Assembly (NCBI GenBank): GCA_947176035.1
Contig: CAMWPJ010000006.1
Coordinates: 1 to 38,733 of the forward strand
Source: an uncultured Clostridia bacterium
GTDB taxonomy: Bacteria; Bacillota; Clostridia; Oscillospirales; Acutalibacteraceae
Direction of reading: 5' to 3'
DNA length: 38,733 bases
Position 1 is the stretch's first letter, and the number at the start of each line of letters is the position of its first letter. Below the pieces are notes generated by a model. It saw only the letters and a program-made list of their open reading frames with translations. It ran no database searches and was not told the origin of the DNA. A program made the translations under genes and the position numbers. This document shows positions 80-28,025 of this stretch, in pieces.

Positions 80-90
80 AATCAATCTCC

Positions 91-1182
91 TTATTCAATT
101 TTAGTAAATGTTTGATAATGATTGTTTGTATAATATGTTGAGCCATCACTGCCATGTACAAAACGTTCTCTGTCTCTCGGCTTATTTGGTACTCTGCTAT
201 TTACATCAAATTCTCTATACTGAATTTTGCCACCATTTGAATCATATTGTGGTAATTTAGGCGGTTCATTATCAAAAATTCTACCACCTTTTGTTTTAGG
301 ATTCTGGTCATTTCTCGCACCCTTCCAGCCGCATTTTTCATATTTTCGGTATGAATCCTTAACATTACTCGGAAAATCCTCAGCATTCATCTTAGGTATT
401 GAATCATTTGGACTGGGATTACCGGAGCTCTCACCCGAAGCAGAGCCGCCGCCTTTATACAACGGTATAAGCCTAGATATGGAGGTCTTTTTTACAATGA
501 AGGACTTGCTTAAATTGTTGGTTTCTCCATAACCGACCTCAATTATATCACCCTTCATTTCATCAAAGGGCTTGCCGTAGCAGATAACCTTGCTTGGCTT
601 AATTCTGCTTAACATTTCATTATAACCAAGCATAAAGTGTGATTTTTCTTTTTTAACACCTATTGTTGAGACAGCAACTATGCTGCCTTTTTCTATTGCG
701 TCAAAGCAAAAATTGAAGCTGGTTAAATCGCCCCAACGTACGGTTGGTATAACATTAAGACCCTGTGCCTGCAGATAGGCACCGACCCATCTGTTTTTGA
801 ATGTACTGAACAGCTGCAAAGCAATAGGCATTTCCACAAACATACTGAAATCGGGTGTAAGCACAGCCTTATATTGCCTGAGCGTTTCTAATTTCTTTTC
901 GGGATTGTTGTATATGCTTTCAAATCTGTAGTCGTCAAGAAAGAAATGTACAATTTTTTCGTAATCATCACTTTGATTAACTTTATCATAACCTATAAGC
1001 TTTACATTCTCAAGACTTATTTCCTGTTTTATCACAAGCGGCAATTTGAACATACCAACACGCTTAAATTGATTTCGCAGGAACATAGGATCGTTCCTGT
1101 ATTCATAACTTGTTATGCTATCATCTCCTGTTTTTAATATTATCCCGATGGGGATAAGCTCACAGCTTAGAGACGGAAGCAT
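91..1182 (-). CDS. DUF4417-like protein fused to a C-terminal barnase-family ribonuclease
   Basis: Residues about 33-250 resemble the DUF4417 family of phage and mobile-element proteins (blocks LTPDFS, NRWVGAYLQAQG, IPTVRWGD, FCFDAIEKGS, VICYGKPFDE). A Gly/Ser/Pro linker (about 246-262) leads to a domain at about 265-363 matching guanyl-specific ribonucleases of the barnase type: GGRIFDN at 299-305, YREFDVN at 322-328, RFVHGSDGS at 340-348, and HYQTFTKI at 355-362, almost identical to the end of barnase. Barnase Glu73, Arg87 and His102 correspond to E324, R340 and H355, so the site looks intact. The architecture resembles a polymorphic toxin. No signal peptide is seen. The start is uncertain: the ATG at 1182 lacks a ribosome-binding site, while the ATG at 1086 has AGGA 8 bases upstream. 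The residues just before that Met look conserved, and an AGGAG sits 8-9 bases before an in-frame ATA codon. Confidence 0.8.
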   Translation of the reverse strand: MLPSLSCELIPIGIILKTGDDSITSYEYRNDPMFLRNQFKRVGMFKLPLVIKQEISLENVKLIGYDKVNQSDDYEKIVHFFLDDYRFESIYNNPEKKLETLRQYKAVLTPDFSMFVEMPIALQLFSTFKNRWVGAYLQAQGLNVIPTVRWGDLTSFNFCFDAIEKGSIVAVSTIGVKKEKSHFMLGYNEMLSRIKPSKVICYGKPFDEMKGDIIEVGYGETNNLSKSFIVKKTSISRLIPLYKGGGSASGESSGNPSPNDSIPKMNAEDFPSNVKDSYRKYEKCGWKGARNDQNPKTKGGRIFDNEPPKLPQYDSNGGKIQYREFDVNSRVPNKPRDRERFVHGSDGSTYYTNNHYQTFTKIE

Positions 1183-1225
1183 ATTCTGTCAAGCATTTGG
1201 GCTTATTTGGCACATAATTTAATAA

Positions 1226-1254: not shown

Positions 1255-1310
1255 CTGTAGACAAACAGCAAAAATCGAGGGTGAAAATTCACTCTCGATT
1301 TTGCTTTTTT
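1254..1310 (+). terminator. Two stem-loops ending in a U-tract with no upstream plus-strand gene
   Basis: A small hairpin (GCTGT 1254-1258 / ACAGC 1265-1269) is followed by a strong one (arms at about 1270-1285 and 1289-1302, AAAATCGAG pairing with CTCGATTTT) and then GCTTTTTT. This is an intrinsic terminator for plus-strand transcription, but no plus-strand gene lies upstream. A TTGGCA-17-TAGTAT box at 1207-1235 could start a short RNA ending here. The rest of the gene-free stretch 1183-1488 is AT-rich and holds only direct repeats near 1422-1451. Confidence 0.6.
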
Positions 1311-7584: not shown

Positions 7585-7594
7585 AACAGAAATC

Positions 7595-7638
7595 AAGGAG
7601 TATTAACGATAATTTTTTTACCGTAGTACTCCCTTTTT
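7595..7638 (+). terminator. Terminator-like hairpin between DUF308 and fucosidase genes
   Basis: AAGGAGTATTAACG (7595-7608) can pair imperfectly with CGTAGTACTCCCTT (7622-7635), followed by TTTT. It lies 11 bases after the DUF308 stop and about 17 before the fucosidase start. It may end the upstream operon or act as an attenuator for the fucosidase gene. Confidence 0.55.
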
Positions 7639-7654
7639 ATTAAGAGGTAAAGCC

Positions 7655-9118
7655 ATGGACAAAATTAATGATTATTTAAAAATTATTGATGATGTAATTG
7701 AAAACGGTAAATTCAAGGATAATTGGGAAAGCCTTTCACAGTTTAAGGTTCCGTCCTGGTATCGTGAAGGCAGATTCGGAATTTTTATTCACTGGGGTGT
7801 ATATTCCATTCCTGCAAAACAGACAGAATGGTATCCACGCCTTATGTACATAAAAGGTATGCCGAGCAATACTCACCATATAAAAAAATATGGTATGAAT
7901 TTTGAATATCGTAATTTTATCGATATGTTCAAGCCCGAAAAGTTTAATGCAGATGAATGGATTGAGCTGTTCAAAAAAAGCGGTGCAAAATACATTATGC
8001 CTGTTGGCGAACATCACGACGGCATTAAAATGTACGCAAGCGAGCTTAATCGCTGGAATATGCAGGAGCTCAATGGCAGGGATTATATGGAAGAACTGCA
8101 TACTGCCTGCGACAAGGCTGACCTTGGATTTTTAATCAGCAATCACCGTGCAGAGCATTACTGGTATTTCAATGGTGCAAGAAGATTTTATCCCGATTCT
8201 GAAGTTGCAAAAGACCTTTATCCCGATTTATACGGTCCTGCCTTTATGCCAAAAAGCAAAAACATTTATAAAACAGATAAGGAAATGTTCCCTTCTGAAG
8301 ATTTTGTTAAGGAATGGCTTGTAACAGCCTGCGAAATGATTGACAAAAACAAGCCGCTTGCAGTTTATTTCGACTGGTGGATTCACAAAGACGAATTCAG
8401 ACCTTATCTGAAAAAATTTGCCGCATACTACTACAATCGTGGTATTGAATGGGGCAAGGAGGTCTGTATCTTCTACAAATGGGGAGCATTGTTTGACGGC
8501 TGTGGTGTCTTCGATGTTGAGCGCGGTCAGATTGACGGCGCAGCACGTGAGCTGTGGCAGAATGATACGGCTATTGCAAAGAATTCATGGGGCTATACCG
8601 AGGGCAATCAATTCAAAACGCCTGCCGAAATTATCCGCAATATGATTGAGGTGTTTTCTAAAAACGGCTGTTATATGCTCAATGTAGGTCCAAAGGCAGA
8701 CGGCACAATCTGTGACGAGGAAAAAAATGTTCTGCTTGAAATAGGCAAATGGCTTGATATAAACGGTGAGGCAGTATACGGCTCACAGCCTTTTGAGGTT
8801 TGTCCGTTTGAGGGTAAAAAGAGCAAAAACGGTTCATTCAAGGAAAGCAAGAAATTTTCCAAAAAAGATTTTTGCTTTACTGCCAGACCTGGTAAAATTT
8901 ATATTTTCCCTATGGGAAAAAACTTGCCTGAAACCATAAAAATAAAAGCTCTGCGCCACGCAAATGAACAGGGTATAAGATATAAAATAGAGAATATTCA
9001 TATTCTCGGCGAACAGCATTCACTCAGCTATACCCAAAGCGAGAAAATTCTTGAAATCAATCTCGGTAAAAAATACTCAAATGAAATACCAATGTGTATC
9101 TGCATTGATGTTGAATAA
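7655..9118 (+). CDS. Alpha-L-fucosidase, glycoside hydrolase family 29
   Basis: The 487-residue protein matches GH29, retaining exo-fucosidases that release L-fucose from glycans. Signature blocks are WYREGRFGIFIHWGVYSIPA (35-54), IMPVGEHHDGIKMY (114-127), and LAVYFDWWIH, where D240 fits the catalytic nucleophile (the family usually has FDG). NVGPKADGTI appears in the second half and a C-terminal beta domain (about 380-487) follows. No signal peptide is present, so it is predicted to act in the cytoplasm on imported fucosylated oligosaccharides. AGAGG lies about 8 bases before the ATG. No sugar transporter or fucose pathway gene is adjacent. The acid/base residue could not be assigned by eye. 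Confidence 0.9.
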   Translation: MDKINDYLKIIDDVIENGKFKDNWESLSQFKVPSWYREGRFGIFIHWGVYSIPAKQTEWYPRLMYIKGMPSNTHHIKKYGMNFEYRNFIDMFKPEKFNADEWIELFKKSGAKYIMPVGEHHDGIKMYASELNRWNMQELNGRDYMEELHTACDKADLGFLISNHRAEHYWYFNGARRFYPDSEVAKDLYPDLYGPAFMPKSKNIYKTDKEMFPSEDFVKEWLVTACEMIDKNKPLAVYFDWWIHKDEFRPYLKKFAAYYYNRGIEWGKEVCIFYKWGALFDGCGVFDVERGQIDGAARELWQNDTAIAKNSWGYTEGNQFKTPAEIIRNMIEVFSKNGCYMLNVGPKADGTICDEEKNVLLEIGKWLDINGEAVYGSQPFEVCPFEGKKSKNGSFKESKKFSKKDFCFTARPGKIYIFPMGKNLPETIKIKALRHANEQGIRYKIENIHILGEQHSLSYTQSEKILEINLGKKYSNEIPMCICIDVE

Positions 9119-9126
9119 AAGCATAC

Positions 9127-9156
9127 AAAAGCCTTGCATTATTCTGCAAGGCTTTT
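9127..9156. terminator. Bidirectional terminator between convergent genes
   Basis: A perfect 12-bp stem (AAAAGCCTTGCA 9127-9138 / TGCAAGGCTTTT 9145-9156) with a 6-base loop sits 8 bases past the fucosidase stop and 10 bases past the stop of the minus-strand S1 gene. Both strands end in T-runs, so it can serve both genes. Confidence 0.88.
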
Positions 9157-9166
9157 AACATTATAT

Positions 9167-10081
9167 CTAAACCGAAAAATCCGTATAAATCTGCTTTTGG
9201 CTGCCCTCAGGCGAATACTGCCAAAAATCCATATGATTATCATTAATGTAATATGTAAGTGGTGCCGGTTTCGCAATTTCATCAAACGCTTCAACAATCA
9301 CAAGCTTAATCTTCATTTTTGCAGGGATAACAGATTTAACATATACTACAACCTGCTGACCGACAAACAGATTTTCCTGTGGCTCGGCAAGCCCTGCAAG
9401 ATTAGGTGCAAGCTCAACAAAAACACCGTAATCCTCAATACTCCTTACAACACCTGTCACCGTTTCGCCGGCTGCAAAAGCCTGTGCATTTTCCTCCCAA
9501 TTACCAAGCAGCTCTTTAAGCGAAAAAGTCAGCTTGCTCGGCTCTTTTTTCCTTAGAATAACCTTAATATTCTGGCCCTCGGTCAGCCTTTCGTTAGGGT
9601 GTCCTATACGCGATACCGACAGCATATCAATGGGAATAAGTGCATTTACACCCGCACCTATATCAATAAAAGCACCGAATTTTTCAAGATGCGTAACACG
9701 TGCATCAATAATATCGCCCACAACAAGATGATTAAGATATTCATTCATACATCTTTGCTGTACTGCACGTCGAGACAGAATAGCTAAATTATTATCATAA
9801 ATATCACGCTGAAATCCGAGAACAGTAAAGCAAACGCTTTTGTTAACCTTTGATATCAGGGCAATATCACGCACTGAGCCATCGTCTATCCCGACAGCCC
9901 CTTCAACTCGCGGAATAATGGCGCGTAGTGCTCCCAAATCAACATGCAGATTATGCTCTCTGTCGCAGAGCAGCACCTTTGATTCAAGCACCTCTCCCTG
10001 TATCATAGCTTCCTTCAATTCATCAACGGAATCAAATTGCTTTGACAATTCCTGATTTTTCCCCTCCGGGTAAAATTTCAT
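9167..10081 (-). CDS. S1 RNA-binding domain protein
   Basis: A 304-residue protein built from S1 OB-fold modules as in ribosomal protein S1. A degenerate first module covers about 28-105, a clear S1 domain about 121-190 (VGDIIDARVTHLEKFGAFID), and another about 204-262 (GETVTGVVRSIEDYGVFVEL). It is shorter than the four-to-six-domain S1 of proteobacteria, as is common in Clostridia. It probably binds mRNA and assists translation or RNA turnover. The ATG at 10081 is preferred: GAGAG precedes it and the next 80 codons upstream encode a low-complexity hydrophobic run typical of non-coding sequence. It is divergent from the DUF951-prfA operon. Confidence 0.85.
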   Translation of the reverse strand: MKFYPEGKNQELSKQFDSVDELKEAMIQGEVLESKVLLCDREHNLHVDLGALRAIIPRVEGAVGIDDGSVRDIALISKVNKSVCFTVLGFQRDIYDNNLAILSRRAVQQRCMNEYLNHLVVGDIIDARVTHLEKFGAFIDIGAGVNALIPIDMLSVSRIGHPNERLTEGQNIKVILRKKEPSKLTFSLKELLGNWEENAQAFAAGETVTGVVRSIEDYGVFVELAPNLAGLAEPQENLFVGQQVVVYVKSVIPAKMKIKLVIVEAFDEIAKPAPLTYYINDNHMDFWQYSPEGSQKQIYTDFSV

Positions 10082-10140
10082 AACATCACTCTCTTTTTTA
10101 TTGTAGTTAAGTATATGAAATAAATTCGCGGAGTATGATA

Positions 10141-10169
10141 AACATATATGATGATATAAGAGTTGTAAA
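10141..10169 (-). promoter_or_regulatory. Possible promoter of the S1-domain gene
   Basis: On the minus strand TTTACA (10164-10169), 17-base spacer, TATGTT (10141-10146). Its -35 shares bases with the -35 of the divergent DUF951 promoter. The -10 is weak, so the call is tentative. Confidence 0.4.
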
Positions 10170-10191
10170 AATTTCACAGTGGTGTTATAAT
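10163..10191 (+). promoter_or_regulatory. Extended -10 promoter of the DUF951-prfA operon
   Basis: TTGTAA (10163-10168), 17-base spacer and TATAAT (10186-10191) preceded by TGT, an extended -10. The same layout occurs before ppdK. Transcription would start near 10198, about 50 bases before the DUF951 start. Confidence 0.8.
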
Positions 10192-10247
10192 AACTAAATA
10201 TAAATATAATAACGTTAAGGATAATGACTATGTAAAGGAACATTATT

Positions 10248-10448
10248 ATGCAGCTTAAATTAGGCGATATTGTTATAATGAAAAAAAACCATCCCTGCGG
10301 CTCAAAGGAATTTGAAATCACACGTCTCGGCGTTGATTACAAGCTTAAATGCTGCGGCTGCGGAAAAGAGGTTATGATTCCCAGAATCAAAGCAGAAAAG
10401 AACATAAAGAAAAAAGTAAATAATGATATTAATGAGGATAAAATATGA
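10248..10448 (+). CDS. DUF951 family small protein
   Basis: A 66-residue protein of the DUF951 family of small Firmicutes proteins. Its pattern is [18 protein letters not shown] followed by [23 protein letters not shown], then a basic tail. Three cysteines in the CCGCG segment plus the upstream HPCG could bind a metal, and the basic surface suggests nucleic-acid contact (inference). The function is not known. The ATG has AAGG about 9 bases upstream. Its stop overlaps the prfA start by 4 bases (ATGA), so translation of the release factor is probably coupled to it. Confidence 0.88.
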
Positions 10449-11521
10449 TAGATAAACTTGTAGAAGTAGAAAAAAGATATGAAGAGGTAAATGAGCTTGT
10501 GTGCAACCCGGATATCGTATCTGATCAGGAAAAATACACAAAGCTTATGAAAGAGCTCAAACACCTTACCCCTGTTGTTGAAAAATTCAGGGAATATAAA
10601 AAGGCAGAGGAATCCTTTGAAGAATCAAAAATGATGCTTGACGAGGGCGGTATGGATGCCGATTTTGCACAGATGGTTAAAGAGGAATTTGAGCAGAGCA
10701 AGGACGATATGGAGCGTATATCCGAAGAGCTTAAGGTGCTCCTTTTACCTCGTGACCCTAACGATGATAAAAACGTAATTATCGAAATCCGCGGCGGTGC
10801 AGGCGGTGAAGAGAGTGCACTTTTTGCAGGTGTGCTTTTCCGTATGTACTCTATGTATGCAGAAGCGAAGGGCTTTAAAACAGAGGTGCTCAACGCAAAC
10901 GAAACAGGACTTGGCGGATATAAGGAAATCAGCTTTTCCGTTGAGGGTGACGGTGCATATTCCCGTTTTAAATTTGAATCGGGTGTTCACCGTGTTCAGC
11001 GTGTGCCCGAAACCGAGAGTCAGGGCAGAATTCATACATCAACAACAACGGTTGCCGTTCTTCCCGAGGCTGAAGAGGTTGATTTTGATATCAACCCGAA
11101 GGATTTGCAGATTGATACCTTCCGTTCCTCAGGTGCAGGCGGTCAGCACATCAACAAAACATCATCCGCTATCCGTATAACACATCTGCCGACAGGCACG
11201 GTTGTCGAATGTCAGGATGAACGTTCACAGCATAAAAACAAAGAAAAGGCCCTTAAGGTTCTGCGTTCACGTCTTTATGATGCAGAAAAGGCAAAGCACG
11301 ATGCAGAAATTGCAGGTGAACGTAAAGCACAGGTCGGCACAGGTGACCGAAGTGAGAGAATAAGAACCTATAACTATCCGCAGGGTCGTGTGTCAGACCA
11401 CAGAATCGGTCTCACCCTCTATAAGCTTGAGCAATTTTTAAACGGTGATCTTGATGAAATGATTGATGCACTTATCACCGCCGATACAGCCGAAAAGCTC
11501 AAAGCACAGGGCGAGGAGTAA
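10445..11521 (+). CDS. prfA: Peptide chain release factor 1
   Basis: The 358-residue protein is RF1, which ends translation at UAA and UAG in the ribosomal A site. The catalytic loop [17 protein letters not shown] contains the GGQ tripeptide that triggers peptidyl-tRNA hydrolysis. The PxT-type codon-reading region appears as [16 protein letters not shown]. The helical N-terminal domain and full length fit the family. Its start overlaps the DUF951 stop. The methyltransferase gene prmC, which often follows prfA in Firmicutes, is absent here; an AT-rich gene of unknown function occupies that place. Confidence 0.98.
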
Positions 11522-11558: not shown

Positions 11559-12281
11559 ATGAAAATTAATTGTAAATTGACTGATTCAACTGAATATAAA
11601 CAATTTTGCTGTATAGAAAATTCTGTATATACATTAAAAATCAGTAAGAATTTTGAATACTGGTATTATGATTTATGCGATTTAATTGATTTTTACAATA
11701 ATAGCAGTGTTGAAATAGTTTTAAATGCCAATCGTGCTGATATTGAACTGGCAAGAAAACTATATGGCAATCACAGATATAATGAATGCTATCTCAGAAA
11801 ATATGAAACTGATATTATGGTTCATAGCACACCGTTTGAAAATGTTGAGAGTATAATTAAAGATGGTGAACTGAAATCTTGGAATATTTTGAAATTTGAA
11901 AAATCTAATTGGGAGCAAATACCGATTGGCACATTACTTGGAGATATTGATGATTTTTCAAATTATGTTATGTTGTCAATATTGTCTCAAAATAGTGAAG
12001 TTGTTACAGCATCAAAGCAAAAGCATAAGATAGATACCAATATAAATCAGTTATATAAGCCGGGTGCGAGATTTTATCTAAATGCAAAAAAGCTTGCATC
12101 TGATGGATTGCTTTTAAGAGATGGCGAGCATATAAAAGTTAAAGACTATATTCCTTTGAATGAATATCTAATTTGGTATTCAACCACTGAAAATTTGGGT
12201 CTTAATAAAATATCGACACCAAAAGAATTTTTTGAAAAATCAAACAACAGATTTTTCGAATTATATCCCCATTATAAATAA
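11559..12281 (+). CDS. AT-rich hypothetical protein, possibly ADP-ribosyltransferase-like
   Basis: This 240-residue protein is not recognised with confidence. It is visibly richer in A/T and in AAT, ATA and TTA codons than its neighbours, and no clear ribosome-binding site precedes the ATG. The N-terminal 85 residues resemble nothing known to me. The central VHSTPFENVESIIKDGELKS (88-107) has the H-[ST]-T ... I-x-x-D/E-G-x-L pattern seen at the start of several ADP-ribosyltransferase-like folds. It is followed by GARFYLNAKKLASDGLLL (169-186) and a late Glu (E211); an H-Y-E triad is conceivable but speculative. It interrupts the usual prfA-to-sua5 neighbourhood, which suggests acquisition by transfer. 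No obvious partner gene is present. Confidence 0.7.
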   Translation: MKINCKLTDSTEYKQFCCIENSVYTLKISKNFEYWYYDLCDLIDFYNNSSVEIVLNANRADIELARKLYGNHRYNECYLRKYETDIMVHSTPFENVESIIKDGELKSWNILKFEKSNWEQIPIGTLLGDIDDFSNYVMLSILSQNSEVVTASKQKHKIDTNINQLYKPGARFYLNAKKLASDGLLLRDGEHIKVKDYIPLNEYLIWYSTTENLGLNKISTPKEFFEKSNNRFFELYPHYK

Positions 12282-27187: not shown

Positions 27188-27886
27188 TTAAGTATCGAGC
27201 GAAATATAGTTCCAGTCTTTAACATCAGAAATTAACCATTCAAGACCACGCCGTCTTTCAACAACAACATCCTTATTAAGCTCACCGATTGGAGTATCGG
27301 GGCGGATTCTTTTTTCTGTTGTTGCCCAATGATAACGATAGTACAAATCAAGCATATCAAGAATTTCTTCAGTATTTCTCAGCTTACATTTTGATTTGAA
27401 TTCATCATAGCTTTTACAATCTCCAACCAGAGAAATCGCCTTTTGGCAATCACAGATATCTTTAGGATATTCAAACCCAATATCATCTATCAAACCGAGT
27501 GCCCACACCAATGACCAATAAGCCTCATACGTCCATACAACATCTATAACATCCTGCTTGCTGTAATGCCCGAAAAACACCTTCTTCTCCTTACTCAGCA
27601 AATCCTTCTGCACACCGAATTCCTTAAGGAGCTTATAGAACATTTCCTTTGACTGCTCATAATCATCAGTATCAGCATCCATTGCAATCTGCGTTGACAA
27701 AAGACAGGCAATGGCTCTTTTACAAATTTCGTCCATATCCTTTAACTTTACCTGCGAGCTATCCTCTAAAACAGGCAGATTTTCATTGCAGGCTATTCCT
27801 CTATCCTTAATCTTTTTATTAGATGCAGCTCTCCTTTGTTCAGGAGTTTTGATACTTTTTCTTTTAAATTTATCAAACAAGCCCAT
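27188..27886 (-). CDS. DUF4272 domain protein
   Basis: The 232-residue soluble protein fits DUF4272. After a basic N-terminus (MGLFDKFKRK) come TPEQRRAASNKKIKDRGI, LPVLEDSSQVKLKDMDEICKRAIACL, the WTYEAYWSLVWALGLID block, LDLYYRYHWATTEKR, and the closing ERRRGLEWLI. These are the family's hallmarks, but no activity is established. The ATG at 27886 has AAAGG 8 bases upstream and is preferred to the ATG at 27895. It stands alone between terminators; TATAAT on the minus strand near 27900-27910 may be its -10. Confidence 0.85.
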   Translation of the reverse strand: MGLFDKFKRKSIKTPEQRRAASNKKIKDRGIACNENLPVLEDSSQVKLKDMDEICKRAIACLLSTQIAMDADTDDYEQSKEMFYKLLKEFGVQKDLLSKEKKVFFGHYSKQDVIDVVWTYEAYWSLVWALGLIDDIGFEYPKDICDCQKAISLVGDCKSYDEFKSKCKLRNTEEILDMLDLYYRYHWATTEKRIRPDTPIGELNKDVVVERRRGLEWLISDVKDWNYISLDT

Positions 27887-28025
27887 ATTAAACACCTTTA
27901 ATATTATTATAATTATCGTTTAGCGCAGTAAGTCGTAAGTAATGATTAAACAATCGTGCATTATTAATATAAGCTATAATTTGATATTATGCAATAAATT
28001 ATTTATAATACTAATTGTAACCACA

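Follow-up and report, generated by a model that had tools for sequence, protein, structure and literature searches.

What does a gene do that joins DUF4417, a domain frequent in phages, to a barnase-family ribonuclease? Such a gene lies near one end of the 38,733-nt stretch of DNA analysed here (the window), which is contig C6 of the source genome in full. We propose, with moderate confidence, that the gene belongs to a polymorphic toxin–immunity system of gut Clostridia whose carrier domain is related to a phage protein. The features of the locus are collected in Table 1. Elsewhere in the window, positions 27188–27895 encode a DUF4272 protein (Pfam, E 1.5e-64), and a 240-aa ORF at 11559–12281 has no Pfam match up to E 0.1 and looks ADP-ribosyltransferase-like by eye.

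Table 1. Features of the toxin locus, in window coordinates
Feature	Position	Strand	Remarks
Barstar-like immunity gene, first 26 codons	2..79	-	truncated at the contig edge, with the rest on contig C98 (L369)
GGAGATTGATT, ribosome-binding-site-like GGAG before the immunity gene	80..90	-	sequence
Divergent tip relative to L032	86..283	-	60 differences in 198 nt
DUF4417-barnase ORF	94..1182	-	stop codon 91-93; ORF 91-1182 = 363 aa
Barnase-family ribonuclease domain	97..384	-	residues 267-362; Pfam PF00545 and PDB barnase
H355	118..120	-	on barnase H102 in alignments
R340	163..165	-	on barnase R87 in alignments
R336	175..177	-	on barnase R83 in alignments
E324	211..213	-	on barnase E73 in alignments
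Gly/Ser linker	400..456	-	residues 243-261; tails of relatives diverge 3' of here
DUF4417 domain	535..1062	-	residues 41-216; Pfam PF14386, PHROG 940 and 8680
Inverted repeat TTATCCC-N4-GGGATAA	1140..1157	.	directly after the promoter-like element
Promoter-like element TTGACA-N17-TAAGCT	1164..1192	-	second hexamer weak; common to several toxin genes of relatives
Terminator-like hairpin	1271..1302	.	between the toxin gene and the glycosyltransferase gene

The fusion of the two domains is near certain. PF14386 matched the window protein with an E-value of 1.2e-61 (207.8 bits; curated Pfam cut-off 28.9), the PHROG match of the same domain had an E-value of 1.5e-57, and PF00545 matched with an E-value of 3.6e-8 (34.3 bits; cut-off 24). 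Barnase chains in the PDB matched the protein from E 7.7e-7 (phmmer), and a profile of the six DUF4417-linked barnase tails, i.e. those of the window and of loci L032, L033, L083, L151 and L154, matched PDB barnase at 8.6e-10. The two parts are separated by the linker GGGSASGESSGNPSP (residues 244–258). The initial annotation had read a DUF4417-like N-terminus, a Gly/Ser linker and a ribonuclease C-terminus from the letters alone and had called for a ribonuclease match in the C-terminal part, which was found in both Pfam and the PDB. It had also placed E324, R340 and H355 in register with the barnase triad; these residues do align with E73, R87 and H102 and, together with R336, are invariant in all six tails. 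A lysine or arginine lies close to the K27 place in each of the six (by eye). The barnase numbers used for aligned positions here (E73, R87, H102, R59, K27) are those that we take to correspond. R59 of barnase is a residue of the base-recognition loop, and its position in the window tail is occupied by Glu in both the PDB and the profile alignments; contacts with the substrate or with barstar may therefore differ from those of barnase. Ribonuclease activity and toxicity are predicted for the window protein. As the initial annotation had also claimed, no hydrophobic secretion signal was apparent by eye. The Pfam result for the protein contained no MuF domain up to E 1, and neither an LXG domain nor a ParB-like partner; NCBIfam had no match for it or for ten relatives.

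The first ATG of the ORF (nt 1182) falls between the two hexamers of the conserved promoter-like element. It is therefore probably not the start, and the first residues are probably untranslated. Two other candidates are an ATA at codon 23 (nt 1116), located 8 nt after AGGAG, and the next in-frame ATG at codon 33 (nt 1086), located 8 nt after AGGA; judging from the sequence, translation probably begins at one of these. The promoter-like element and the inverted repeat of the window (1080–1192) are also present in relatives: several toxin genes carry, before the domain, TTGACA-N17-TAANCT or a close variant, an inverted repeat and then AGGAG or GGAG, and the toxin gene of L032 has the same leader as the window gene. 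A consensus promoter scan did not list the window element because its second hexamer is weak. Rfam had no match in the first 2682 nt of the window, the inverted repeat included, nor in L123 or L090; the matches in six other loci were limited to a T-box, three tRNAs and one pemK RNA, none of which overlapped a toxin leader. A different leader, GTTGCC..GGCAAC and GTGAAAGGA..TCCTTATC, precedes the toxin gene in other genera (L121 6633, L129 6388, L132 6050, L123 12692); it resembles two hairpins and has no Rfam match. In both L129 and L132 the toxin gene is preceded by a tRNA gene at a distance of ~180–210 nt.

A barstar-like gene, which the initial annotation had missed, starts 11 nt past the toxin stop codon. 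Its window part was detected at E 1.9e-6 in a barstar-like profile search of the source genome. Contig C98 of this genome starts with the remainder of a barstar-like gene (residues 16–135), followed by a second, complete copy, and the window end and the C98 start share an exact overlap of 34 nt, by which the two contigs probably join. The tandem copies are identical at 364 of 366 nt over the compared part, which would explain an assembly break at this position. Beyond the barstar-like genes C98 carries histidine kinase and response regulator genes in the order found in L032.

All six barnase-tailed loci have a barstar-like gene 3' of the toxin gene (the window via C98; L032 with two copies). 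The Pfam Barstar model (PF01337) scored above its cut-off beside the L083 barnase (1.8e-8, 34.6 bits). The window-type copies reached 15.6–17.6 bits, below the cut-off of 23.4 (E 0.016 for the L033 copy, 0.0039 for that of L038 and 0.0097 for that of C98), the L032 copy had no Pfam match, and a PDB search with a profile of window-type copies did not find barstar. The assignment of the window-type gene is based on the homologous copy of L083, which is 36–37% identical to that of L033, and on gene position. Seven barstar-like copies align over their full length, with 31–91% identity to the first, and D66, M68 and T69, at what is presumably the place of barstar Asp39, are invariant. The barnase tail and the barstar-like gene very likely constitute a toxin–immunity pair in which the barstar-like protein would neutralise the nuclease.

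Comparison with L032, the closest relative, revealed a sharp recombination-like breakpoint. The window and L032 have 99.5% identity as far as barnase codon 300 and 70% beyond it. On either side of the divergent tip there are six nucleotide differences in 284–1600 and six in 1–85; at the amino acid level there is one difference in residues 23–300 and 22 in residues 301–363. These counts place the break inside the barnase domain. Identity between C98 and L032 is patchy over the barstar-like genes (66–97% per 150 nt) and mostly 92–99% in the flanks, except for parts of the kinase gene (71–88%) and one intergenic stretch (76%). We read this pattern as an exchange of the toxin tip together with its antidotes. 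Mis-assembly was considered as an explanation for the divergent tip and is less likely: the contig ends at the near-identical tandem barstar-like genes, and C98 contains divergent barstars followed by the histidine kinase and response regulator genes in L032 order.

The glycosyltransferase gene that adjoins the toxin gene was detected in 19 of 80 genomes of the genus at E 1e-40 or better. In three of nine further sites (L314, L315 and L316) the kinase and glycosyltransferase genes are adjacent without a toxin gene between them; the flanks match L032 on both sides in L314 and L315 and on one side in L316. L321 holds a remnant in which the same linker leads into a different tail; the remaining five sites have other neighbours or reach a contig edge.

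The window protein was matched in 20 of the 80 genus genomes, in some only as fragments. In a sample of the window's family, DUF4417, tailed or not, was present in 58 of 300 genomes (43 of 135 genera), and phylum-wide it was present in nine of 398, the source genome included. Six of the ten phylum matches outside the source genome lie in open frames of 218–256 codons, and the frames of the others are 71, 134, 344 and 479 codons long. Among phage records, 474 of 50,697 matched a query with the window protein, and the match was to the DUF4417 part among the 40 matches listed. Tails of at least 40 aa followed 50 of 78 bacterial as opposed to two of 75 viral DUF4417 domains; these are the domains reaching the model end among the best 80 of 364 relatives from the genome collection and the best 80 of 243 viral relatives, and since tailed proteins were the basis of the query and only the top matches were retained, the fractions do not represent population shares. 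Of the same 75 viral proteins (best 80 of 243), 74 end 6–44 aa after the domain. Among cultured bacteria, Caproicibacter fermentans EA1 carries two tailed DUF4417 genes (L159 and L160). The initial annotation's description of DUF4417 as a mobile-element family holds in that the domain is frequent in phages, but the toxin-tailed form is common in the bacterial and rare in the viral loci compared, and the chromosomal site of the window copy is unoccupied in three relatives.

The fetched loci yielded 99 tails, 83 of them unique, which fell into nine clusters with 54, 6, 6, 3, 2, 2, 2, 1 and 1 members; six unique tails were too short after the linker to be placed. The C-terminal domains that could be identified among DUF4417 proteins, a check that the initial annotation had proposed, were of the barnase (six tails), LHH (two; 7.4e-26 for L041, the one tested), AHH (one; 4.5e-16, L128), Ntox50 (one; 3.8e-25) and Ntox37-like types (six; best 4.8e-5, below cut-off). 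The cluster of 54 has a motif like HYTDH..HTNPHDH, and its tested members had no Pfam toxin name and no NCBIfam match; this commonest tail, that of L095, had no match in either the phage or the plasmid collection. The LHH toxin gene of L041 is followed by a SUKH-like gene (0.0015, below cut-off), its counterpart in L042 has a partner that is similar by eye, and the AHH toxin gene of L128 is followed by an Imm11 gene (1.6e-22). Small downstream proteins that resemble one another by eye accompany two tail types (L155 7237–7608, L158 3106–3438, L088 6808–7077, L090 5208–5546) and may constitute a single immunity family that serves two toxins. Relatives of the window's barnase tip also occur in six plasmid records, on RHS (five) and haemagglutinin-repeat (one) proteins, and in 31 of the 300 family genomes; three of the latter lie over longer DUF4417-linked frames and the rest mostly in frames of ~180–290 codons. 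We conclude that DUF4417 very likely forms the constant N-terminal part of a family of polymorphic toxins in which tails and immunity genes are exchanged. The proposal of a toxin with DUF4417 as its carrier stands as likely; the window protein is a member of this family, which the initial annotation had overlooked, and not a single odd fusion.

Antidote genes also occur apart from their toxin. A profile search found barstar-like genes in 11 of the 80 genus genomes. Linkage to a DUF4417-barnase gene was seen in G000, G039 and G051, and no such gene was found in G074, G075, G078 or G079, which have intact barstar-like genes. The copies of G052 and G008 are broken and that of G060 is cut by a contig edge. 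The barstar-like copy of G078 has a barnase remnant of 19 residues next to it. That of G079 comes after a different tail and the immunity domain belonging to that tail, and contig edges truncate two DUF4417 genes in this genome; the G075 genome is 75% complete. In G002 (L038) a barstar-like gene lies 3' of an Ntox37-like toxin gene, and further up there is an orphan barnase–barstar pair, the array at 7594–10769 comprising orphan barnase and barstar, a DUF4417 fragment, the Ntox37-like toxin and another barstar-like gene. Apart from the orphan barstars, orphan toxin or immunity cassettes are present in L038, L372 and L373. Orphan antidotes are what one would predict for a toxin that reaches other cells, but they could also be leftovers.

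The sister subfamily formed by the cluster of 54 has an unusual gene layout. In most of its members, e.g. L095 6082–7467, L136 6058–7467, L139 5414–6790 and related loci, the tail runs in frame into an immunity-like domain. The same domain was found in separate ORFs and tandem arrays as well, in all 123 ORFs including duplicates, 54 with DUF4417 and 69 without. Among 50 distinct DUF4417 frames, 35 had a Shine–Dalgarno match of at least 5 nt at the best start near the beginning of the immunity-like domain, compared with 32 of 596 same-frame control windows, 188 of which had no start codon at all. The in-frame domain is probably an antidote, and it may be made alone from the internal start as well as fused to the toxin. 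We found no account of such a toxin–immunity fusion or nested antidote in the open literature searched.

The architecture, active-site conservation, immunity linkage, tail swapping, orphan immunity genes, breakpoint and empty sites, all observed computationally, underlie the polymorphic toxin–immunity reading. DUF4417, related to a phage protein encoded upstream of terminase in the two phages examined, would serve as the constant N-terminal carrier, coupled through a Gly/Ser hinge to a C-terminal nuclease that can be exchanged, in this case a barnase-type RNase. The downstream barstar-like genes would protect the producer, and the toxin would most likely cleave RNA in cells lacking a matching barstar. 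The targets would be kin or competitors; on balance we favour action on other cells, for which phage-like particles are a possible route. Several results count against this reading: the orphan antidotes may be leftovers (the G078 remnant, the contig edges of G079, the completeness of G075), the ATG at 1182 is doubtful, the window-type barstars score below the Pfam cut-off with a negative PDB profile search, no secretion or delivery partner was apparent among the neighbours of tailed genes, and the EssC model stayed below its cut-off in the source genome. Type VII secretion was accordingly set aside as a candidate, the EssC match in that genome being partial (128 bits); the model also matches in nine of 14 control genomes. 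The last two results fit an intracellular defence or addiction module, akin to the action inside the cell that the initial annotation had considered, in which DUF4417 would sense a phage or plasmid event and free the nuclease, the barstar would restrain it, and a tail swap would amount to an exchange of effector. The commonest toxin tail is fused in frame to its immunity-like domain, which would be odd for a secreted toxin, and the phage DUF4417 homologues might represent either the partner that is sensed or the source. We nevertheless regard such a module as unlikely in view of the orphan and tandem immunity genes and of several tail and immunity families known from polymorphic toxins; that no PADLOC model matched any of five proteins is weak evidence in the same direction.

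Delivery by phage particles, in the manner of MuF toxins (the part of PMC5576092 drawn on here offers the precedent), would have DUF4417 load the toxin into virions that a resident prophage produces, so that the toxin would enter the recipient together with the DNA. Streptococcus phage A25 carries a solo DUF4417 gene two genes upstream of that for the small terminase, and Roseburia phage Jekyll carries one three genes upstream of that for the large terminase. The tailed gene of L097 (3632–5014) is located amid phage terminase, portal, head and tail genes (by eye), and L098 (5886–7268) encodes the same toxin before a gene matching a PHROG minor tail protein (2e-81). The rarity of tails of at least 40 aa among the viral domains compared speaks against this route, as do the few phage families near tailed genes: after removal of two duplicates and one ORF with a barstar, 147 of the 150 listed neighbours from 44 loci were searched, with sequences trimmed to 330 aa, and the 25 of 130 PHROG families listed included two integrase families with five members each and a tail-lysin family with two. 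Nor was a phage cluster evident by eye around the window's neighbour gene in the nine sites fetched. We consider phage-particle delivery possible, but somewhat less likely than the intracellular module. For comparison, the 25 of 90 PHROG families listed for 81 neighbours of short-tailed genes included endolysins, terminase small subunit and repressors. In a further record labelled bacteriophage (MT835546.1; L141 6001–7319), a GGRGTF-type ORF overlaps a short DUF4417 gene, and the neighbouring genes look chromosomal by eye. The gene might also be a decayed or unexpressed remnant, given an ATG within a promoter-like element, with an ATA or a later ATG as the alternatives, and given that the genus has several DUF4417 copies that are incomplete or interrupted by stops. 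This is very improbable for a frame of 363 open codons whose leader is shared with L032, whose codon-33 ATG is preceded by AGGA, whose active-site residues are the same in all six tails and which is nearly unchanged relative to L032 over residues 23–300.

The polymorphic toxin–immunity reading can be extended, tentatively, to the idea that DUF4417 is a phage-derived loading domain that became the carrier of chromosomal toxins, via phage-like particles or some other route, with a nested in-frame antidote start in the commonest subfamily; we hold this extended version to be unlikely as a whole. If the polymorphic toxin–immunity reading is correct, DUF4417 would gain a working role, polymorphic toxins of Gram-positive gut bacteria would gain a new class of carrier, and the role of DUF4417 in phages would become testable, as the toxin would report where DUF4417 takes its cargo.

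In the open literature searched, to which bioRxiv did not belong, we found no account of a DUF4417-toxin architecture. DUF4417 is named in three papers there and PF14386 in one. The family thus appears to be undescribed in that literature. LXG toxins of Gram-positive type VII secretion combine a constant N-terminus with swapped toxin tails and immunity genes in Firmicutes. The DUF4417 family shares this organisation, but the window protein has no LXG domain in Pfam and its genome no EssC match above cut-off. Solo phage DUF4417 proteins (PHROG 940, annotated 'nuclease', and 8680) contain the same domain as the window protein and end shortly after it, whereas the window protein adds a linker and a toxin tail. 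Other phage proteins have DUF4417 fused to ParB-CTPase folds, as described in PMC12704722, in whose main text the word 'toxin' does not occur; the window protein has no ParB-like partner, and a DUF4417 profile run against the PDB with the ParB fold in question matched two designed proteins (E 0.002 and 0.032).

Barnase-tipped polymorphic toxins, as covered in part of PMC3482391, resemble the window locus in the barnase domain, the barstar-type antidote and the toxin-before-immunity order, which that source treats as a recognised feature of polymorphic toxins; the window differs in its DUF4417 carrier and in the Glu at the R59 place. The trafficking types named there are T5SS, T6SS, T7SS, PrsW, PVC and MuF. 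According to the portion of PMC5576092 used, MuF toxins of temperate phages likewise have a phage-related N-terminus and exchangeable C-terminal toxins, occur in Firmicutes and are abundant in the gut, as is the DUF4417 family, and 96% of muf genes lie in prophages or their remnants. In the window family, by contrast, DUF4417 takes the place of MuF, phage neighbours are few among the families listed, and the genes around the window site are chromosomal.
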